Both the position numbers and the translations under genes were made by a program. 37,137 nt of DNA from Synechococcus sp. UW140 (GTDB taxonomy: Bacteria > Cyanobacteriota > Cyanobacteriia > PCC-6307 > Cyanobiaceae): assembly GCA_945875915.1 (NCBI GenBank), contig CAMCMT010000025.1, positions 1 to 37,137 on the forward strand. The letters are read 5' to 3'. Below are positions 1 through 10,560 of this stretch, piece after piece. How positions within the stretch are numbered: position 1 is the first letter of the stretch; the number at the start of each line of letters is the position of its first letter. The notes beneath the pieces are model-generated. The model did not search any database. It worked only from the letters and a program-made list of their open reading frames with translations, and was not told the origin of the DNA.

Positions 1-94
1 AGAACCGGCTTTTTGCCCTGGAGCTTTGTGACTCTTTGCTGTTCGTCCCAGAAGCCTCTCTGACCCACCGTTGTCGCAACAAATGCTCAGCAAA

Positions 95-379
95 TCATAA
101 TCGGGAGTATGCTGGAATCAAGTGTATTGTTAATTTTTCGAGGTGCCCTGCAGTGATTCCGCATTTAGTTACTGGAGAGGATCCATGTGCCACGCCCAGG
201 ATCCAGGAAGTTTCGGCAGTGGTTAGCCATAGGCCTGATGCCACGGCCTTCTCTGCGGCCTCTAGGCGGGCCAGTAAGCGCGCTGCGTCCGTAGCCGACG
301 GCAAGAGTCGCCGATCGTGCCAGCGTCTTCCAAGAGGGTTTGACGAGGGCCGTTGAAAAGTCGGCAATCTTCTTTTCAC
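95..379 (-). pseudogene. Small HTH-like ORF, probably decayed
   Basis: This 94-codon frame is not a recognised full gene. Its middle part (about residues 28-60) reads as a helix rich in Ala/Leu/Glu followed by LTTAETSWILGV, which resembles the first helices of a short helix-turn-helix domain. The same pattern (LTSKEARWILGKKP) occurs in the broken gene at 1149-1451, so the two are probably distant copies of one family. A second minus-strand frame (165-491, starting MLKFTMALCGILF) overlaps it and may hold the original N-terminus after a frameshift. No ribosome binding site was seen. A plus-strand frame also stays open from the left edge to 356 but its composition (many Cys, Arg, His) does not look coding. 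Confidence that this encodes a working protein is low. Confidence 0.3.
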
Positions 380-2628: not shown

Positions 2629-2782
2629 TGTTGCTCCAGCGCTGAAGAAACGTTAAGTGCATTCCTTGGTGGTGCATTACCCCTGTCATGTAGAGGTCAA
2701 GTTTTTTATCCAAAAAAACAGTTTGCAGTCGCCAGCAGATTAGAAGTCTATATGATTAAGCAGCCTCTTCTGACGTAATTCT

Positions 2783-3262
2783 ATGTATGAAATCGCCTGG
2801 ACAGGCATGTACGCAACTCAGTGGCTCGAAAGGCTTTTGGAGCCGGCGAAAACAGGGGCCATTGTATATATTATTGGTCTGCACAAGGAGCTGGGCTATG
2901 GCTTAATAGAATGCCTTGACGATTCCGAGGGCAACCCATTGATCGACGGCATTCGACCAGAGCTTTCGGGTCGAGAAATAGCTGAGTTTTTGTCAGATAA
3001 GAAAATTGGAGACTTTTCGATAGGCAGTCAAAAACTATTATTCGCATCTAAAGAATCAGCAGAAGCTATGAGCCTTAAGATCAAGAGAATTTACCATCAT
3101 CTTGATCTATTGATTGAGGCGTCAGGACGTGACTACTTGAATCTTGAGGCCATTAACCCTAGAGACTCTAAGACGTGCTCAGGCTATACGTGCGAGATGG
3201 AAGAGCTGCTTAATGAGTACTGGAGTCTCTTCCCAAGAGAGAACCACAAGGTTCTTCAATAA
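2783..3262 (+). CDS. Hypothetical protein, 159 aa
   Basis: The product starts MYEIAWTGMYATQWLERL and is a mostly helical soluble protein with no signal peptide or membrane segment. It is rich in Glu, Leu and Ile. I recognise no family. The ATG at 2783 is the first in the frame, and the preceding 150 bases (2629-2782) contain no gene but include an AT-rich stretch with a TATATGAT sequence about 30 bases upstream of the start that could be a -10 element. Base composition is AT-rich, like the other genes in the first 3.7 kb, and unlike the rest of the window. It is probably an acquired cargo gene. Confidence 0.5.
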   Translation: MYEIAWTGMYATQWLERLLEPAKTGAIVYIIGLHKELGYGLIECLDDSEGNPLIDGIRPELSGREIAEFLSDKKIGDFSIGSQKLLFASKESAEAMSLKIKRIYHHLDLLIEASGRDYLNLEAINPRDSKTCSGYTCEMEELLNEYWSLFPRENHKVLQ

Positions 3263-3353
3263 TATAAGATAGGTGTAGGCTTGCGCCAATGAGGCCTGTC
3301 GTTTGAAATCGATTTATGCATGCATTTAGTTCAGCGAAGTGCATATCAATAGA

Positions 3354-3683
3354 CTAACCCAAGGCATTGGCCTGCATACGCAGCTTGAGAACGTCTATCT
3401 GGATAGCTGCAATCCGCTTTTTAATTTTGCCAATCTCTGCCCTTTTGTGATGATCTTGACCTCCTCGGGAGTTCTCCGACTCAACAACAGCATCCTCTGC
3501 GTTTCTAAGTTTGTACATCTCAGCAACCATCTCTGCTTCCTTATCAATAATCTGCAAGCTCCACGGAAGCCCGATGGGTTTCCCATGGGGTACAGGGGCA
3601 GGGATCAGATTGCGGGCGTTCTCAAGAACAGAGATTGGCTGTTTGGAAGCCTGAGATGGCTTGAAGAACCCTTTGAAAACCAT
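3354..3683 (-). CDS. Hypothetical protein with coiled C-terminus
   Basis: The 109-residue product starts MVFKGFFKPSQASKQPISV. It has a Pro-rich middle (LIPAPVPHGKPIGLPWSL) and then a charged helical half from about residue 45 onward (heptad-like spacing in IIDKEAEMVAEMYKLRNAED and KRIAAIQIDVLKLRMQ) that may form a coiled coil. No family is recognised. A plus-strand frame of similar length covers the same bases but has a less protein-like composition. The gene stands alone between the unknown gene ending at 3262 and the toxin-antitoxin pair; the 196 bases 3684-3879 downstream of its start hold no gene apart from the left copy of the direct repeat. Confidence 0.4.
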   Translation of the reverse strand: MVFKGFFKPSQASKQPISVLENARNLIPAPVPHGKPIGLPWSLQIIDKEAEMVAEMYKLRNAEDAVVESENSRGGQDHHKRAEIGKIKKRIAAIQIDVLKLRMQANALG

Positions 3684-3781
3684 TGATGTACGTACTAAGA
3701 GTGTGAGCTGAGCTTACAAGGCTTTCGCCGTTGGGCGGACCTCCCTGTCCTAAGCAGCGCTAGCCAATAGGGCCCTTCTAG

Positions 3782-3807
3782 CTTACCCCGCCAATGCCCG
3801 AACAAAC
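3782..3807 (+). repeat. Imperfect direct repeat, left copy
   Basis: This 26-bp stretch matches 4697-4722 at 23 of 26 positions, in the same orientation, and the two copies bracket the MazEF-type pair. Both begin CTTACCCCGCCAA. Read on the minus strand, one shared frame gives W-R-G-K-x-E-G in both copies, so they may also be the tails of two related lost ORFs. Confidence 0.5.
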
Positions 3808-3879
3808 TTAGTATCGGCACTTCTTCAACGCGAAGTTCAGCCAATATGCTTCGCCAATCCAAAAGCTACCAACTGCCAA

Positions 3880-4209
3880 TCAACGGGCCAAACCCAAATA
3901 CACAAGCAGCGAACGATTCAATCGTAGCAAGTCATCATCAGCAAGCATGCCAATCCGTTCTCCCAGCCGTTTTCTGGGAACGGCTGTGATCTTGTCCACC
4001 ATCAAATAGCTGTTTTTTAGAAGACCATTCTCTGGCGTTAACTTCACTTTCAGCCTCAGAATCGGTGCTTCAATCGGCTCGCTGGTGATGAGGCAAACCG
4101 TAATAGACGCCGTAACAGCAAAAGCATCATCCTGAATGATCAACACAGGGCGAGGTTTACCGGCGTAGCCGGGACCACCGGCCATGGTCCAAATCTCACC
4201 GCGCTTCAC
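3880..4209 (-). CDS. mazF: MazF/PemK-type toxin
   Basis: The 109-residue product begins MKRGEIWTMAGGPGYAGKPRPVLIIQDDAF, the standard opening of the MazF/PemK family: a basic first strand with GEIW, then GKPRPVLIIQ with the basic residue used in RNA cleavage. The strands SITVCLIT and the segment NGLLKNSYLMVDKITAVPRKRL match the conserved core, including the Asp-Lys-x-x-Thr that shapes the active site, and GLAR ends the last helix. MazF toxins are sequence-specific endoribonucleases acting in the cytoplasm on single-stranded mRNA. The gene overlaps the antitoxin stop by four bases (ATGA at 4206-4209), so the two are coupled, with the antitoxin first. Length is normal and no residue looks missing, so it is probably active. 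Confidence 0.85.
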   Translation of the reverse strand: MKRGEIWTMAGGPGYAGKPRPVLIIQDDAFAVTASITVCLITSEPIEAPILRLKVKLTPENGLLKNSYLMVDKITAVPRKRLGERIGMLADDDLLRLNRSLLVYLGLAR

Positions 4210-4469
4210 ACGCTGTACTCATCATTGGGCCACTCGAGCACCGAATCAATCATGGATTGGATTTCGGCTTCCTCCGGGCTTTGGGCGACCAACAGCGACT
4301 GGCGCCGAGCCTCGGCCGCGAATTCAGGCGAACGCACATCCGGCACCCAGATCTGGATTGGCCGCATGCCCTGGGCCCGCAGCCTCTGGCGGTGCTCACG
4401 CACCTTCAGGCGGGTGGTGGCACGCCTCACCTCCTGGGCTCTGGCGCCTGGGGTGACCTCCGCTCCCAT
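4206..4469 (-). CDS. MazE-like antitoxin
   Basis: The 87-residue product has KVREHRQRLRAQGMRPIQIWVPDVRSP at about residues 22-48 followed by EFAAEARRQSLLVAQSPEEAE. This is the signature of the antitoxin MazE family often listed as DUF3018, whose N-terminal part binds operator DNA as a ribbon-helix-helix-type dimer and whose acidic C-terminus (EEAEIQSMIDSVLEWPNDE) wraps the toxin. It is translated just before the MazF-type toxin with a four-base overlap. The start used is the ATG at 4469; a shorter start is possible. A perfect 10-bp palindrome 17-26 bases upstream is a good candidate for the autoregulation site. Confidence 0.8.
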   Translation of the reverse strand: MGAEVTPGARAQEVRRATTRLKVREHRQRLRAQGMRPIQIWVPDVRSPEFAAEARRQSLLVAQSPEEAEIQSMIDSVLEWPNDEYSV

Positions 4470-4485
4470 GGGTCTTCTACTTTAG

Positions 4486-4495
4486 TTACATGTAA
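4486..4495. promoter_or_regulatory. Palindrome upstream of the antitoxin gene
   Basis: TTACATGTAA is a perfect 10-bp palindrome located 17-26 bases before the antitoxin ATG, where a toxin-antitoxin operator overlapping the promoter is expected. It is proposed as the MazEF autorepression site by position only. Confidence 0.4.
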
Positions 4496-4497
4496 TC

Positions 4498-4524
4498 CTA
4501 GCCAGTCTTGGCCTGATTGGCTAG
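4498..4524. other. Inverted repeat between mazEF and ssb
   Basis: Ten bases on each side can pair (CTAGCCAGTC with GATTGGCTAG, one G-T pair) around a 7-base loop. No T-run follows on either strand, so it is not a clear intrinsic terminator. It lies between the promoter side of the antitoxin gene and the end of the ssb operon. The rest of 4525-4793 holds no gene apart from the right copy of the 26-bp repeat. Confidence 0.3.
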
Positions 4525-4696
4525 CGGCCTGCCCTAGCTGCGATCTCAGGGGTAAGGCGACCGATCGGTTTCTTGTTGACCGGGGTGGGCCTCGAAGCCC
4601 CATGTCCACTGAAATGAACCTGGCCCCATCCAATGGGGGCTCCAGCTAATGAAATCAGCCAAGTTGAACTGGGGATTTGGCTATGGATCCCTCTCT

Positions 4697-4722
4697 CTTA
4701 CCCCGCCAAGGCCCGCGCAAAC
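4697..4722 (+). repeat. Imperfect direct repeat, right copy
   Basis: This copy matches 3782-3807 at 23 of 26 positions; the three differences are T to G at position 14 and AA to CG at positions 20-21. It lies 70 bases beyond the ssb stop codon. The two copies are 915 bases apart and enclose the whole toxin-antitoxin operon. Confidence 0.5.
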
Positions 4723-4793
4723 GCTGTCGCAGTCCCTGAACACGATGCCCACGGATAGCTGCGAAAATCGGCCGTTATCGACGCCGAGCCTGC

Positions 4794-5249
4794 TTAGAAC
4801 GGCAACTCCCCCTCGCCCAGGCTGCTTCCCCTACTGCTGATCTGCCCTTCCTCAGCCGCCGTCGCCTTGGCACTGCTGCGAGTGACGGCATTCGTCACTC
4901 CGGCGTCCTTTGATGCCGCCCCATTGGGGTTGCCACCACAGAGCTCCAGTCGATCGATGACCACTAGCGGTTTGCTGCGAAGCTCACCGCTGCTGCGGTC
5001 GTTCCATTGTTCGATCTCGAGCCGGCCGATGATGGCGACCTTGCTGCCCTTGCGCAGGTAGTCGCCGGCCACCTGGGCGGTTTTACCCCAGGCCTTACAG
5101 GAGATCCAGAGCGGGTCCTGGGGCTGGCCGTCCTTGGGCGGCCTGTTAACCGCCAGGGTGAATTCACAGACGCAGCTGCCGCTCTCAAAGAAGCGCAGCT
5201 CCGGATCGCGGCCGGCATGGCCAACCAGAACGAGCACGTTGATGCTCAT
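4794..5249 (-). CDS. ssb: Single-stranded DNA-binding protein (SSB)
   Basis: The 151-residue product has an SSB OB-fold at residues 1-105: MSINVLVLVGHAGRDPELRF, then FTLAVNRP, ISCKAWGKTAQVAGDYLRKG and VAIIGRLEIEQW, all standard positions for bacterial SSB. A disordered Ala/Ser/Gly linker follows, and the protein ends GEGELPF, a variant of the acidic DDDIPF tip through which SSB recruits recombination and repair enzymes. The tip has only two acidic residues, weaker than in housekeeping SSB. The gene is the last of the recE-recT operon: its ATG overlaps the stop of the gene before it (ATGA at 5246-5249). Its position suggests that it coats the single strands made by the RecE-like exonuclease and hands them to the annealing protein. 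Whether it is also the cell's main SSB cannot be told from this window. Confidence 0.9.
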   Translation of the reverse strand: MSINVLVLVGHAGRDPELRFFESGSCVCEFTLAVNRPPKDGQPQDPLWISCKAWGKTAQVAGDYLRKGSKVAIIGRLEIEQWNDRSSGELRSKPLVVIDRLELCGGNPNGAASKDAGVTNAVTRSSAKATAAEEGQISSRGSSLGEGELPF

Positions 5250-5491
5250 GGCTTGATCCCCTGGCCTAGGGCGTTGAGCGTTTCGATCCGGTCTTGAACA
5301 GCCAGGAGGGAGGGCAGGCCGATCAAGGGATGGGTGCGCACCAGTTCATGCAGGGCCCCACTCCAGGTGATGTTGTGGAGGCGGGCAAAGGCATCGACCC
5401 GCACAAAGGTGTCGCTGTTCATCGCAATCGTCTTCTTGTGGTTGCCGATGCGTTGGCGCAGGGGACGGGGCCGGTCCTGGGCTGGAGTCAT
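5246..5491 (-). CDS. Ribbon-helix-helix-like small protein
   Basis: The start chosen is the ATG at 5491, because it overlaps the preceding stop as ATGA (5488-5491), the rule throughout this operon; the product is then 81 residues. After a basic N-terminus (MTPAQDRPRPLRQRIGNHKK) comes TIAMNSDTFVRVDAFARLHN and ITWSGALHELV: a short beta strand, a helix, a turn and a second helix, the layout of ribbon-helix-helix (Arc/MetJ/CopG) proteins. Such proteins bind DNA as dimers through the strand. It may regulate this operon or act as an accessory DNA binder in the recombination module. The family match is by pattern only; I cannot place it in a named family. Confidence 0.55.
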   Translation of the reverse strand: MTPAQDRPRPLRQRIGNHKKTIAMNSDTFVRVDAFARLHNITWSGALHELVRTHPLIGLPSLLAVQDRIETLNALGQGIKP

Positions 5492-5901
5492 GGCTTGATC
5501 CTCCGAAAGTGGGTGGTGTTGCCGGGATGGCGGTGAATCGGGTTGGCAGGGAGCCCGCCTGTGGGCCAAAGCCGTACGCAACTGGGAATTAGGGGGCAGG
5601 ATTCGACCCGGTAGCGGACCTGGCCGCGCTGCCAGTGCTCTCCAGGCCGGAAGCGCCCTTGGCCAGAAGCCGGCTGGGGTTGGACCTGGTACTGGGTTTG
5701 CCCTTGGGCTGGCAGCAACGCCCTGGCCTGCAGCAGCAGGTTGGCCAGCAGGGCAACCCGCTCCGAGAGCCGTTGCAACTCCAGCTGGCTGCGTTGGCCG
5801 CGGGCCAGTTCAAAGAGGGCCCGATCCCGCTCCGCTTGGGCGAGCTGTAGGGCGGCGAGCAGCAGCTCACTGGCCTGCTGAAGTTTCAAGGAGCTGCTCA
5901 T
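5488..5901 (-). CDS. Hypothetical helical protein in recET operon
   Basis: The 137-residue product has a long helical N-terminal half (residues 1-65, KLQQASELLLAALQLAQAER and RLSERVALLANLLLQARALL) with heptad-like Leu/Ala spacing, probably a coiled coil. A Gln/Pro/Gly-rich segment follows (QTQYQVQPQPASGQG), then a basic, His-rich tail ending HFRRIKP. I recognise no family. Its ATG overlaps the RecT-like stop (5898-5901) and its stop overlaps the next start (5488-5491), so it is made together with the recombination proteins and probably works with them, perhaps as an oligomerising partner. Confidence 0.6.
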   Translation of the reverse strand: MSSSLKLQQASELLLAALQLAQAERDRALFELARGQRSQLELQRLSERVALLANLLLQARALLPAQGQTQYQVQPQPASGQGRFRPGEHWQRGQVRYRVESCPLIPSCVRLWPTGGLPANPIHRHPGNTTHFRRIKP

Positions 5902-7349
5902 GGCGCCAGCGCTCCTTGGTCAGGACGTTGCTGCTCTAGTTGGTCCCGCCGTTTGGAAAGGGCTGCAAAGAGGGTTTGGCCCTGGACTGGGGTGATCTCC
6001 CGAAAGGAGACCAGCTCGGAGATGCGCTCAGCGGCGCTTTCCAACTCCTGGAGGCTGGCGATGCGGGGGATATGGAGCAGGCCAGCCTCAAAGGGATTGG
6101 CAGCTAGGGGCGTTGTCTGAGCCGGTGAAGCCTCTACAGGAACGGGTTCCTTGGATGCGTCCGTCAGCAGAGGTTCTGCATTTGGGCTGGCTGCTACTGG
6201 TTGAGACGCCACGACCGCGATGCTGGCCGGAGCCAACTCGGATTGCTGGAGCTGCGCGACTGGCTCCGTGCCAGTAGGGGACGGACTGGCTTGAGAGCTG
6301 CGGGTGGCTGGTTTAGCCCTGCCCGTTGGCGGTTTGTCTTTTGGCGCAGGCCCTGGCTCTGGAGCCGCCGTTGGGCTTGGGCTGGCTGGGTTTTGGAGAT
6401 GGAGACCTGCCTCCTTAACAGCGTATTGGGTCCGCTCCTCAGCTACGACAGGAGAAAGATTTTTGACTTCCGCTGTTGATGCTGTGTTTTCGCGAACGTC
6501 TACTTCGCTAGGTGCAGAACTGGGGCCTGGGGCCTGGCTCTGGCCGCCGTCCTCCAGCCAGGGCATGGCAGCTGCCGTCGCTGGGGCGGTTGGCTTGGCA
6601 GCACTACTAGCGGGGGCGATGCCCTGATTCGCAGGCGCGGCTGGCTCTACGGGGACCGCCCTAACCAGCTCGATGTCGAGAGCCTCTTCCTGGGTGATCA
6701 AACCCAGGGCGATCTCGGGGCAGTAGACATTCGCCCACCAGGCAGCCGCGCGGTAGCGGAGCATCTGGCCGGTCATCGTCTGCCACTTGCTGGTCTCGTT
6801 GCCCTGGCGGTCTTTACGGCTCCACCAGCCCTCTTTACGGGCCAGCTCCAGGGTGATCGTTTCGCCCTCGAGCACTTCTGCGGTCGCCTTGTCGGTGGCT
6901 ACCGCATGGCAGCGGGTCGGGTTCTGCGGGTTGTCAAAGACAAAGCGCAGGGGCGAGAAGCGGCCGCTGGCATTGACGGTGGCGATCAGGAACTTGCTGC
7001 TCCAGGTCGGGCGGCCGTGGATCGGCGTCATGTTCTGCATCACCACCAGGGGCGAAAGACGCATGCGGCCGGCGATCTCCAGGGCGATCAGGCTGTTGGC
7101 GAGCCCCTGCTGGCCCTGGTACTCCTTCGGCACGAGAGTGGAGGAGCAGAGGGCCCGGGCCATGCGCTGGGCGGCGTCAAAGGCGGCCAGGCCACTGAAC
7201 ACCTGGAGCACTTCTGTTGGTGCCGCCTGGGCCGGCGGTGCTGGTTCGAGGGGAGCCAGGGCTGAACTGGCCTGGGCTTGTCCGGCCAGGGCGAGGGCTG
7301 ATTGGGCAGCAGAGGGATTGGCGTTACTTGTGGCAATGGGATGGTTCAT
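5898..7349 (-). CDS. RecT-like phage single-strand annealing protein
   Basis: The 483-residue product has a conserved core at about residues 45-225 that matches a phage family paired with exonucleases: FDAAQRMARALCSSTLVP, then ALEIAGRMRLSPLVVMQNM, IHGRPTWSSKFLIATVN, GRFSPLRF and, near the end, KWQTMTGQMLRYRAAAWWA. Proteins of this type are distant relatives of RecT and anneal complementary single strands. Residues about 226-420 are a very Pro/Ala/Ser-rich linker, which makes the protein roughly 200 residues longer than common RecT proteins. A helical end domain (about 420-475, ASLQELESAAERISELV) closes it. The start is one base past the RecE-like stop (TGATG), so the two are coupled. Exonuclease plus annealing protein plus SSB is the classic Red/RecET set. 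Function is inferred from family resemblance and from the neighbour. Confidence 0.7.
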   Translation of the reverse strand: MNHPIATSNANPSAAQSALALAGQAQASSALAPLEPAPPAQAAPTEVLQVFSGLAAFDAAQRMARALCSSTLVPKEYQGQQGLANSLIALEIAGRMRLSPLVVMQNMTPIHGRPTWSSKFLIATVNASGRFSPLRFVFDNPQNPTRCHAVATDKATAEVLEGETITLELARKEGWWSRKDRQGNETSKWQTMTGQMLRYRAAAWWANVYCPEIALGLITQEEALDIELVRAVPVEPAAPANQGIAPASSAAKPTAPATAAAMPWLEDGGQSQAPGPSSAPSEVDVRENTASTAEVKNLSPVVAEERTQYAVKEAGLHLQNPASPSPTAAPEPGPAPKDKPPTGRAKPATRSSQASPSPTGTEPVAQLQQSELAPASIAVVASQPVAASPNAEPLLTDASKEPVPVEASPAQTTPLAANPFEAGLLHIPRIASLQELESAAERISELVSFREITPVQGQTLFAALSKRRDQLEQQRPDQGALAP

Positions 7350-8197
7350 CAGAAGAGGTCGATCGTTTCCAGATCAAGAGCTGTGGGTTCGGGAAGGCCA
7401 AAACCAATGGAGGCAGGACGGAAGGGATTGCGGCCGTGACTAGGCCAGAGGCCCCTGGCCTGGCAGCTGGCAATCCGCGAGAAGGCCTCCTCCCGCCGCT
7501 TGCGGCCAATCTCAAGGTCCTGCTCGTCCATGAGCAGCAGGCCGCAGTCGATGGCTGCCGAGGGATCGGTTGGCCACTCAAAGACGATCAGTCCGGTTTC
7601 GGCCGGTGGCGTGCCGTTGCGGTGTTCGTAGCCCAAGGCCAGGTGGGCCAGCTGCAGGTCGTAGGCCAGCTCCTTGGCCTGCCAGTAGAAGCGCCTGGGC
7701 ACAGCGCTGCGGGTTTTCTTGAGGTCAAACAGCCGGCCATCGCGGGTGACGACATCAGGCAGGCAGCGGCAGGGACGGCCCGCTGCGTCGCTCCAGAAAT
7801 GGGGCTGCTGGCTGTGGGCGGGATCGAGGGCCGCCAGCACCTCACCCACCTCCGGGTCGCCGAGCAGGGCATCACGGATGCGCAGCGCCTGCTCCACCAT
7901 CTCGCTACTGACGGGCGTGAGCCCGGCCGCCTCGGCCTCGGCGCAGTTGGCGGCGCCGATCTTGCTGTTGCGCGCAATCGTCTTAAAGACCTGAAAGCGG
8001 GACTCCAGGGCAAAAGGTGGTGTGAGCAGGGCATCGACCAGATCGCCCTTGACCATGTCGGCGCTGGGGACAAAGGCCACGGCATCGGGGCCAAAGCGTT
8101 GGCGCCAGGCCCGCATCGTGCCGGTCACGGCCGCCTTGAGTGCCGTGGGTGACCAGGCGGGATGTCGGTGGTAGTCAGCGAGGGACATCGGTCTCAT
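7349..8197 (-). CDS. RecE-like PD-(D/E)XK exonuclease
   Basis: The start at 8197 is preferred over one 60 bases upstream because it overlaps the previous stop as ATGA (8194-8197); the product is 282 residues. It opens with SLADYHRHPAWSPTALKA, the start of the RecE C-terminal nuclease domain (YHxHPAxSxSxLK). The active-site part is also present: FWSDAAGRPCRCLPDVV with Asp148, then LFDLKKTRSAVPRRF with Asp158-Leu-Lys160, then AYDLQLAHLALG with the helix Gln182. RecE-type enzymes digest the 5' strand of duplex ends processively and leave 3' single strands for annealing. Compared with E. coli RecE the GxxVHxL helix reads GDLVDALL, so one His is replaced. The gene is coupled by overlap to the annealing protein downstream. 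I am confident of the fold and family, less so of polarity and processivity. Confidence 0.8.
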   Translation of the reverse strand: MRPMSLADYHRHPAWSPTALKAAVTGTMRAWRQRFGPDAVAFVPSADMVKGDLVDALLTPPFALESRFQVFKTIARNSKIGAANCAEAEAAGLTPVSSEMVEQALRIRDALLGDPEVGEVLAALDPAHSQQPHFWSDAAGRPCRCLPDVVTRDGRLFDLKKTRSAVPRRFYWQAKELAYDLQLAHLALGYEHRNGTPPAETGLIVFEWPTDPSAAIDCGLLLMDEQDLEIGRKRREEAFSRIASCQARGLWPSHGRNPFRPASIGFGLPEPTALDLETIDLF

Positions 8198-8637
8198 GGC
8201 AGGTCCTCCAGTCCCTGGCCCAGCACGAAGGACCGGGCCTCCGCCAGGGTTGGGCAAAGACCCGAATCAATGCCGCCACCGCCTTGGTGCAGCAGGGTGG
8301 CGATAAAGCCACCGCTGATGCTCTGGCGGTAGCTGATGGCGATGCCCAGTGCGGCTAGGGCCGTGAGGGATTCGGCCGTGATAGCGCTCCAGTGGCTTTG
8401 CCATTGGGCCAGGTCCCTGGAGAACGCCGCCTGGATGGCGGTGTAACGGGCCAGGTCGCTGCCGCAGCTGGGATGGTGGAGCGGAGCCAGAAAGCCTGGC
8501 TTGTGGTCTGGGTTGCTGTTGGGGCTAGAGCGGGAGCTAGAGGGTTGGCTGGATTTGGGGCTGGAGCTGGAGGTGCTGGTCTGGATCTGGGGATCTAAGG
8601 AACTGGGCGACGCAGATCCCCGTTCGTGGTGGTTCAT
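8194..8637 (-). CDS. Hypothetical Ser-rich protein upstream of recE-like gene
   Basis: The 147-residue product starts at the ATG at 8637 (an earlier one at 8646 is possible). Residues 8-45 are a low-complexity Ser/Pro/Asn stretch, probably disordered. The second half is a compact domain with ITAESLTALAALGIAISYRQ and then PTLAEARSFVLGQGLEDLP. No family is recognised. The stop overlaps the start of the RecE-like gene (8194-8197), so it is the first gene of the coupled recombination operon. The 131 bases before it (8638-8768) hold an inverted repeat and the likely promoter. Confidence 0.5.
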   Translation of the reverse strand: MNHHERGSASPSSLDPQIQTSTSSSSPKSSQPSSSRSSPNSNPDHKPGFLAPLHHPSCGSDLARYTAIQAAFSRDLAQWQSHWSAITAESLTALAALGIAISYRQSISGGFIATLLHQGGGGIDSGLCPTLAEARSFVLGQGLEDLP

Positions 8638-8688
8638 CAACAGCAATCGCTGGATGCCAAAGCTACCCCTATGAAACTTTTTCGGGAA

Positions 8689-8721
8689 CGCGAATTAGAA
8701 CTATTCTGATTTGGCATAGTT
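8689..8721. promoter_or_regulatory. Inverted repeat and repeated motif before the recET operon
   Basis: AACTAT at 8699-8704 is mirrored by ATAGTT at 8716-8721 with an 11-base spacer. It lies about 60-80 bases before the first gene of the operon. Next to it, CGCGAATTAG (8689-8698) recurs as CGCGAATCAG at 8755-8764. These are plausible binding sites for the XRE-like or RHH-like protein encoded in the same locus. The evidence is positional only. Confidence 0.35.
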
Positions 8722-8768
8722 TGGGCATTGGTCGCGCTTGCCACTGAAATCAAGCGCGAATCAGCCCC

Positions 8769-9488
8769 CTATCCACCAGTGCCGCCCTGGGCTTGGGCCT
8801 CCTCGATCGGCTCCTCGAGCGGCACCAGCTCAACTGCCACTGTCCCAACCCAGTCATAGAGAGCTTTTTTGGCAATCGGTAGCACCACTGATGGCAGCCG
8901 TTCCCCGGCAAACAGGGCATTTTCAATCGCCATCACCTGCTCCATCGGCAGCTCGCCGGCTAGGCGCAGCACCTGCATGGCGGCTGACACCGGCCTGAGG
9001 CCACCGTGCTCCACCGCCTGATCAAACAGGCTGCGCAGCCGCTTGGTTTCGGCTTCCGCATCGATCTCTTCTTGGTGGGGCCAGAGGTCTTCTGGGCCCT
9101 CGAGTTTGCCGATGTAGCAAGCAAACCAGTCCTCCGCCGCCCAGGGCCGCCCATCTGGGTGCCTGACGGGCTGGGCCTGGCTGACCCGTTGGCGCAGCAG
9201 CTTGTCCTTGATCGTGCCCCGCTCAGGCTGGGACAGGCATTCGTTGAGGACCCCCAGCTGGATAAAGGTGCTGGGCTGGGGCTGGGTCACCTTGGCGTTT
9301 TCGATGTTTCCCCACTGTCCGCCCGCCACCCGCAGGGGCCAGGGGATCACCGCTGGAGCGGCCTTAGCCCAGTCCTGGGCCGTAGTGACAGACCAGCCAT
9401 TGCGCTTACGCCAGTTGCGCAGGAAGCGGCCGAACTGGACCCGGGCCGCATCGAGCTTGGGCTGGAGGCTCTGCACTGGGTTGCCCAT
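8769..9488 (-). CDS. XRE-like DNA-binding regulator
   Basis: The product is 239 residues from the ATG at 9488 (a GTG at 9509 is possible). The N-terminal part has the Cro/CI-type layout: FGRFLRNWRKRNGWSVTTAQ for the first helices, then GGQWGNIENAKVTQPQPSTF and IQLGVLNECL, where NIENAKVTQP matches the usual IExGxxxPs of XRE repressors. The C-terminal 120 residues (WAAEDWFACYIGKLEGPEDL and following) are a mainly helical domain that I cannot assign. The insertion between helices 2 and 3 is longer than normal. It is encoded first in the minus-strand recombination locus, 131 bases before the next gene, and a 13-bp inverted repeat lies just upstream of its own start. It is probably the locus repressor. 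Confidence 0.55.
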   Translation of the reverse strand: MGNPVQSLQPKLDAARVQFGRFLRNWRKRNGWSVTTAQDWAKAAPAVIPWPLRVAGGQWGNIENAKVTQPQPSTFIQLGVLNECLSQPERGTIKDKLLRQRVSQAQPVRHPDGRPWAAEDWFACYIGKLEGPEDLWPHQEEIDAEAETKRLRSLFDQAVEHGGLRPVSAAMQVLRLAGELPMEQVMAIENALFAGERLPSVVLPIAKKALYDWVGTVAVELVPLEEPIEEAQAQGGTGG

Positions 9489-9499
9489 CGGGAACCCAT

Positions 9500-9512
9500 A
9501 CGGTATCACCGT
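9500..9512. promoter_or_regulatory. Inverted repeat before the XRE-like gene
   Basis: ACGGTATCACCGT has perfect 5-base arms around ATC and lies 12-24 bases upstream of the ATG at 9488. This is the expected place and size for an XRE-type half-site pair, so autoregulation is likely but untested. Confidence 0.4.
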
Positions 9513-9849
9513 TTACTTAGCGAGAAGCTTGATCGGTTGTGGGTTTAGGGGCTTGCTATGCGTAGGGGTGCTTAGTTCTGGGGCGGCTTGCTGTGGGCTG
9601 GTGGGATGGCTGACGGCTGAGCGCCTGAAGCCAGCAAGTACGGCTAGGCGGGGGCTTGAAGACCAAAGGCAAGATCTTTTATTGCTGCATCAGCCGGCTT
9701 CGGTGGGATCGGCAGCGGCGGATTTTTGGGGGTTGAACCCCAGCCAAGTGCCCTGTTCAAATTCCACCAACCGAATGGTCGGTCTGTTCCTTCATCTGTT
9801 CCAATACATTGAGAAGCATTGCAATATCTAGAAACTTGGTGCGTCGCAC
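9513..9849. other. Intergenic stretch between the island operon and tRNA fragment
   Basis: No full gene is visible in these 337 bases. On the minus strand a short frame reading RLVEFEQGTWLGFNPQKSA and ending at a TGA near 9694 looks protein-like but has a stop directly upstream, so it may be a remnant with a frameshift (the neighbouring frame begins MLLNVLEQMKEQT). The promoter for the XRE-like gene must lie at the left end. Confidence 0.35.
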
Positions 9850-9895
9850 TCGGCTTTTAACCGATTAGTCCTGAGTTCGAATCTCAGGCGACCCA
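9850..9895 (+). tRNA. 3' fragment of tRNA-Lys(UUU), likely attachment-site scar
   Basis: The sequence holds an anticodon arm (stem TCGG/CCGA, loop CTTTTAA at 9854-9860, anticodon TTT at 9856-9858), a variable region, a perfect T-arm (CTGAG, loop TTCGAAT, CTCAG), and the acceptor 3' strand GCGACCC with discriminator A at 9895. The acceptor 5' strand and D-arm are missing: GCGTCGC at 9841-9847 nearly pairs with the acceptor 3' strand, but only two bases separate it from the anticodon stem, so no D-arm can fit. A tRNA truncated at the anticodon arm is the typical product of integrase-mediated insertion into a tRNA gene, which leaves the 3' end duplicated. The intact tRNA-Lys should lie beyond the left edge if the island is whole. 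Confidence 0.85.
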
Positions 9896-10560
9896 TTGAA
9901 AACACTGGTAAAAACGAGGCCCTGGAAGGGTTTTGGAGCCAGTCATTCAGTTTGAACTGATGTTGTGAATGTTCACAGGGCGCCGGTTCGCGGCGTGGCG
10001 GACCCTGTGGGACCCCTTTTTTCACCTAGGTTTCACCCAGATTTCACCCGGGTGAAATGGCGGCTCCCTGGCTCACCGACATCTCGCGCAGTTTCAAGCG
10101 CCATCGCATGGGACAGCCCGGCCGGTTGCTGGAGTTTCACCGCGACAAGCTGCGCCGGAATTGAGCGGCGGTTGGCGGAGGTGCGGTTTGTGGGGGTGTG
10201 CCACCGGCTTTTGATTGGCGATTGCGCAAATCATTGGCAGACTTTTTAGGGAATGAACGCCCGCCCAGATGCCGCTTGGCTTTTGCAAGCATGGCCAAAT
10301 CCTGGATTTCTTTGGCAAACTGTATGGGGATAACTTGAGACATATTGGTCCCAGTTATCAATCAAATTGCATGTCCAAGTTGCTTCTTCTGATGTCCCAC
10401 TTGCAGGAAACATAGCTCCACCATCGGCGCTGCCGGCATTTTTCTGCGTCGCCACGGGGGCTAGGGTTCTATCCAAACGATTTTTTCCGGGCCAGTTGAG
10501 GAGTTGCTGGTCGACAGACCTCTCCTTTGTTGGTTGCAAAATGCCGCTTAGTGCCTGGGT
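9896..10560. other. Gene-poor stretch beside the tRNA fragment
   Basis: No recognisable gene is seen in these 665 bases. Two overlapping minus-strand frames (10539-10246, starting MQPTKERSVDQQLLNWPGKN, and 10361-10137, with MSQVIPIQFAKEIQDLAMLA) have fairly protein-like stretches but no ribosome binding site or known family, so they may be remnants. A 35-codon plus frame from 10057 (MAAPWLTDISRSFKRHRMGQ) is too short to judge. The stretch includes phased TTTCACC repeats near 10020. Confidence 0.3.
10020..10058. repeat. Phased TTTCACC repeats ending in a palindrome
   Basis: TTTCACC begins at 10020, 10031 and 10042, exactly 11 bases apart. The last copy is part of the perfect 18-bp palindrome ATTTCACCCGGGTGAAAT (10041-10058). 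A further TTTCACC occurs at about 10136. One-turn phasing suggests protein binding on one face of the helix. The site lies about 125 bases to the right of the tRNA-Lys scar, so integrase arm sites, an excisionase site or an operator are possible. Confidence 0.5.

Follow-up and report, generated by a model that had tools for sequence, protein, structure and literature searches.

The systems closest to the locus described here are the RecE/RecT pair of Rac and the Red-type modules of phages, which resemble it in the catalytic residues of the nuclease (PDB 3h4r), in the adjacent RecT gene and in the overlap of neighboring genes, and phage contigs in IMG/VR, on which SSB is linked to RecE/RecT as it is here. 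The RecE/RecT/SSB module itself is not presented as new; it is of a known kind. Exonuclease VIII of the Synechococcus phages S-CBS1 and KBS-S-2A is 27-28% identical to the RecE of this locus and most IMG/VR nucleases are 53-54% identical to it. On viral contigs of IMG/VR (22-53 kb) RecE, RecT, and SSB occur together at 50-68% identity, and the genes that we number 1, 2, 5, and 6 are absent there. A second parallel is SXT/R391, whose Red genes (bet/exo) make hybrid elements (PMC2786100) and in which, as here, phage-type annealing genes are part of an integrated element whose site other elements also use. Those genes are orthologs of lambda Red on a conjugative element, whereas here RecE/RecT are found on tRNA islands, and conjugation genes were not noticed among the scanned island proteins. 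Tycheposons of Prochlorococcus and Methylophilaceae are a third: by the descriptions in PMC10872708 and PMC11389934 they border a tRNA and carry a tyrosine recombinase and cargo, and some are satellites. The islands considered here differ in belonging to freshwater Synechococcus/Cyanobium and in having a RecE/RecT/SSB cassette at the distal end. Two features appear to be new, as far as these descriptions of tycheposons allow a comparison: the constant seven-gene form with conserved uncharacterized partners, and the fixed terminal position on tRNA islands that lack phage genes. Our main reading, to which we give a probability of roughly three in four, is that the seven-gene block is the recombination module of phage-derived elements that integrate at tRNA 3' ends in freshwater picocyanobacteria.

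The window (the whole stretch of DNA analyzed, 37,137 nucleotides) contains, between positions 4794 and 9512, seven intact minus-strand ORFs in the order reported by the first-pass annotation. Gene 1 (8769..9509; 246 aa, or 239 aa with the ATG at 9488) encodes a probable HTH regulator and lies at the distal (att) end. It is followed by gene 2 (8194..8640), gene 3 (7349..8197), which encodes a RecE-type PD-(D/E)XK 5'-3' exonuclease of 282 aa, gene 4 (5898..7349), which encodes a RecT-family single-strand annealing protein of 483 aa, gene 5 (5488..5901; 137 aa), gene 6 (5246..5491; a basic protein of 81 aa), and gene 7 (4794..5249), which encodes a single-strand DNA-binding protein (SSB). Re-reading the junctions confirmed the ATGA and TGATG overlaps that had been noted from gene 2 onward: neighbors overlap by 4-5 nt, with ATGA between genes 2/3, 4/5, 5/6, and 6/7 and TGATG between genes 3/4. 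Because a gap of approximately 128 bp separates gene 1 from gene 2, gene 1 may be a unit of its own. The view of the locus as a phage Red/RecET-type set in a cyanobacterium, translated as a unit together with conserved partners, is supported. Beyond gene 7, a MazE-like antitoxin (4206-4469, minus strand; PF11455, E=1e-26) and a PemK/MazF toxin (3880-4209, minus strand; PF02452, E=4e-19) form a pair (3880..4469) that is probable island cargo. PADLOC recognized neither the seven genes nor the MazEF pair, and the block was not retained as a defense system.

The assignments of the three recombination proteins stood up well. The gene 3 product matched phrog_412 (exonuclease VIII family, E=1e-36), DUF3799 (E=5e-7) and, over its whole length (residues 8-249), the E. 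coli RecE nuclease (PDB 3h4r, E=9.9e-9). The proposed catalytic residues D148 and D158-L-K160 are present, and D148, D158, and K160 are invariant in an alignment of 17 relatives, which argues that gene 3 encodes a real RecE-type nuclease. The gene 4 product was placed in the RecT family by phrog_561 (E=1e-54); no match was found among PDB sequences. Besides a low-complexity linker, it has a conserved segment at the C-terminus that is absent from the aligned phage (IMG/VR) RecT proteins, and this added segment may be a docking site for a partner. The SSB assignment of the last gene is clear (PF00436, E=6e-26), and the acidic tip of the protein is conserved in the alignment, reading EEVPF in relatives and GELPF in the window.

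The partner genes fared less evenly. The XRE-like regulator proposed for gene 1 is a weak call, the match to PF13560 (E=5.6e-4) lying below the cut-off of that family and XRE-type HTH folds aligning in VIA to the AlphaFold model (pLDDT 81) at Z ~5; Foldseek gave no significant match for gene 1 or gene 5. Gene 2 had no family match in Pfam, PHROGs, or NCBIfam. Its description as Ser-rich fits the N-terminal part, which is confined to the window and UW140 copies, and not the remaining protein; most relatives are shorter (102-126 aa), and what is conserved is a C-terminal part of approximately 88 aa. The predicted structure of gene 5 consists of a helical hairpin, the only part spanned by its VIA rows, and a small beta-rich domain. 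Gene 5 is missing in 2 loci (L009 and L017) and shortened in 3 (L010, L015, and L016), so that it would be dispensable. Gene 6 is highly conserved (46-74% identity in ten other loci), and the RHH fold suggested for it found no support in Pfam, PHROGs, NCBIfam, or PDB sequences. Neither gene 1 nor gene 6 had a match in phage records or IMG/VR.

Relatives were sought in one scan across 84,980 genomes, which gave 14 further loci (15 including the window). All 14 belong to Synechococcus/Cyanobium or related uncultured cyanobacteria, and we take all of them to be freshwater, going by record titles and by what is generally known about the strains. Within the family, a RecE match was found in 18 of 400 genomes. 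The order from gene 1 to gene 7 is kept wherever the contig extends: it is the same in all 11 loci that span the whole block, loss or shortening of gene 5 aside, a recurrence far above chance. Genes 1 and 2 occur in 15/15 loci, gene 1 thus being conserved in the 14 others, and gene 6 is present in each of the 11 loci that extend to it. The pattern that the first-pass annotation had named as speaking against its reading, homologs that always sit inside complete prophages and lack the unknown genes, is not the one seen: genes 1, 2, and 6 are kept, and 7 loci carry the block without adjoining prophage genes.

Seven loci (L006, L009, L010, L011, L012, L016, and L017; type I) are, by their gene content, prophage-like elements. 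In these the block adjoins a VRR nuclease, a DEAD helicase, a primase (phrog_35358), TerS, TerL (phrog_38), and a sigma-70-like gene, the last being beyond reach in the first locus of L017. The other side is taken up in most loci by an integrase and a complete tRNA, either tRNA-Lys or tRNA-Pro. A portal gene (phrog_145) and a scaffold-like gene lie upstream, and HJ21-Hayes has in addition a major-head gene approximately 8 kb farther on. A distal att of the type I elements was searched for and not found, and no T-arm-like motif occurs within 1 kb of gene 1 (0/7 loci). We also considered type I as a terminase-bearing, capsid-less satellite and rejected this on account of the portal and scaffold genes upstream and the major-head genes in HJ21-Hayes and in the genome of the window. 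PADLOC detected the DISARM genes DrmA, DrmB, and DrmC near the HJ21-Hayes prophage (L076:4579-10828). One locus, L015, fits neither type cleanly: it has a tRNA-Ser and an integrase, and a primase, a terminase, and a distal att were not found.

In the 7 type II loci (the window, L004, L005, L007, L008, L013, and L014), the type I phage genes (integrase, primase, terminase, sigma, and portal) were not found beside the block. Instead, in 7/7, gene 1 faces the broken 3' end of a tRNA 230-746 bp away, on the strand opposite to the block. The fragment derives from tRNA-Lys(TTT) in the window, L008, L013, and L014 and from tRNA-Arg(TCT) in L004, L005, and L007, and a search of 241 kb of strand in these loci gave no T-arm-like motif other than these seven fragments. 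In L005 a further integrase lies past the tRNA fragment, indicating stacked elements at one tRNA. In L013 the BREX genes BrxA, BrxB, and BrxC (2717-7601; PADLOC) lie directly past the tRNA-Lys fragment. Genome G162 has two copies, one of type I (L006) at an intact tRNA-Lys and one of type II (L008) that ends in a tRNA-Lys fragment; these may be opposite ends of a single composite island.

The earlier remark that no capsid or integrase gene accompanies the block is correct for the surroundings in the window, where tblastn with type I proteins (integrase, terminase, portal, and head) found none, although it overlooked the 3' fragment of tRNA-Lys 337 bp from gene 1. This fragment (attR, 9846..9896, plus strand) comprises the 3' 50 nt of tRNA-Lys(TTT) plus one base and marks the right end of the island. 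The same genome has an intact tRNA-Lys at one end of contig C24, to which the 51 bp of the fragment are identical, and in genome G096 an intact tRNA-Lys continues unbroken into a right flank like that of the window (84% over 309 bp, 9846-10153). The repeat and this continuity together identify the window up to 9896 as the right-hand portion of a tRNA-Lys island, beyond which the chromosome begins. Just outside, a short plus-strand ORF (10057..10164) resembles the start of a tyrosine integrase (the integrase in L087, with which it was compared, starts MASPSWLKDLSRSFKRSRGG); the stretch has a DNA match beside tRNA-Arg in genomes G118 and G068, and it looks like an older, degenerate integrase remnant. 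C24 ends 188 bp past the tRNA, and the left end of the island and its integrase lie outside the assembled sequence. Because that end and the stretch between C24 and the window are unassembled, the window element may carry, or once have carried, prophage genes in another part.

A complete type II island is found in Synechococcus sp. CS-1331. It spans 18.6 kb between the fragment at contig position 37510 and an intact tRNA-Lys at 56110-56181, with 49-bp perfect direct repeats at both ends, so that a tRNA 3'-end repeat at the far boundary is seen here as well as between the window and C24. Its integrase (513 aa) is 53% identical to the type I integrase and follows the tRNA-Lys, an arrangement that is tycheposon-like in form only. 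Along with this integrase and the block, the island carries a Fic protein, a TacA/GNAT pair, Gp157, a Rad52-family protein, an AbrB-like regulator, and a VRR nuclease; RecE is frameshifted near its C-terminus in the present assembly. A terminase, primase, portal, and head gene were looked for in this island and none was found. Rad52-family and Gp157 proteins occur besides RecT in type II at L078:10249-11151 and L008:15304-16434, and type II loci with a Rad52-family protein have two annealing proteins per island.

The block, which we read as the recombination module of such elements, lies beside an integrase and a replication/packaging region in prophage-like members and, in the window, at the far (att) end of the tRNA-Lys island. 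RecE would resect the 5' strands at double-strand ends, SSB and RecT would coat the 3' tails, and RecT would anneal them; gene 1 would regulate, and gene 6, plus gene 5 where present, would assist. In prophage-like members the block would support recombination-dependent replication and concatemer formation. On islands free of phage genes, we infer by analogy with SXT/R391 that it would recombine related elements stacked at one tRNA; stacking as in L005 would supply the substrate. It is tempting, and for now rather speculative, to go further and regard these islands as a distinct class that has its own annealing kit at the island end and shuffles or rebuilds stacked islands. The kit of this putative class would consist of RecE, RecT, SSB, and three to four conserved partners, to which CS-1331 would add Gp157 and the Rad52-like protein. 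Much of the flexible gene content of picocyanobacteria resides in islands at tRNA genes, and a phage-type annealing system under selection on such an island would offer a concrete and testable route by which islands recombine and grow. The cassette may also be a natural recombineering kit for Synechococcus/Cyanobium.

Compatible with the module reading, and possible though on the doubtful side, is that the islands are phage satellites that use helper particles and, on infection, RecE/RecT/SSB for replication by recombination. Integration at a tRNA, an integrase, and phage-type recombinases, joined in CS-1331 by the Gp157 and Rad52-like proteins, are what such satellites would show, and tycheposon-type satellites are known in picocyanobacteria (PMC11389934, PMC10803314); however, no packaging gene (terminase) was found in the complete type II island, and IMG/VR viral contigs gave no match to genes 1 and 6.

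A rival reading takes the window for what remains of the recombination end of a type I prophage that has decayed and now lacks a function. In comparisons of the window with the two UW140 copies (L004 and L005), dN/dS was 0.04-0.12 for gene 1, 0.14-0.17 for RecE and RecT, and 0.27-0.37 for gene 2; type I pairs gave similar values. The lineage has been under purifying selection, dN/dS being silent on whether this acts in a type I or a type II setting. With 0.04-0.17 for the HTH protein, RecE, and RecT, and with seven intact frames, simple decay is an unlikely reading, even though type I elements hold the same genes, small contigs in the genome of the window carry this family's primase, terminase, portal, and major-head genes, and the degenerate integrase start lies immediately outside attR. 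The terminal layout, moreover, recurs at two tRNA species and in several genera, and the CS-1331 island is complete and repeat-bounded while prophage genes were not found in it. In the RecE tree, 6 of the 7 type II copies form one supported group (95/95). The seventh, L008, groups with type I, and a single clade of all seven was rejected (AU p=0.025); the architecture therefore arose repeatedly or recombined. The type II architecture is thus largely a single lineage that has moved from one tRNA gene and genus to another, and it had one or more additional origins or exchanges.

That the block is a domesticated host repair pathway fixed in the lineage, as had been suggested and as purifying selection and the lack of detected phage structural genes beside the window block might indicate, is very improbable and was discarded, because only 2/6 genomes of the genus carry it, at differing tRNA genes (tRNA-Lys in the window and tRNA-Arg, twice, in the UW140 MAG), which shows that it is mobile, and because relatives elsewhere lie inside mobile elements; the chromosomal site is likewise not shared between the window (tRNA-Lys) and L004, L005, and L007 (tRNA-Arg). 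The suggested plasmid origin was dropped as well, the plasmid matches of RecE and RecT being distant throughout (25-38% identity).

The genome of the window contains several members of this element family, which probably explains its fragmentation. A second related element at tRNA-Arg is spread over three contigs: C50, with the intact tRNA-Arg and the integrase start, C73, with the integrase end, a VRR nuclease, and other genes, and C66, with a helicase, a primase, and terminases; the ends of C73 and C66 share 149 identical bp. Portal genes are present in four copies, on C72 (L101), C74 (L100), C77 (L102), and C87 (L093), followed, as far as the contig extends, by a 160-aa gene and a LysM-like gene; a scaffold-like gene is seen at C72 alone. 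Major-head genes lie on C90 and C76. A 206-aa protein on C73 was considered as a second ssDNA-binding protein and set aside, since it matched no Pfam family. Approximately 785 bp of the C66 element (toxin region, L047:1720-2504) are 81% identical to L007:7295-8079, a match that sits immediately outside the tRNA-Arg fragment of L007. The integrase at tRNA-Arg(TCT) appears to be split between C50:147-620 and C73:6062-6904, the first 148 bp of C50 are 86% identical to window positions 2-149, and the end of C73 is 99% identical to the end of the L008 contig, as if an insertion sequence interrupted this integrase.
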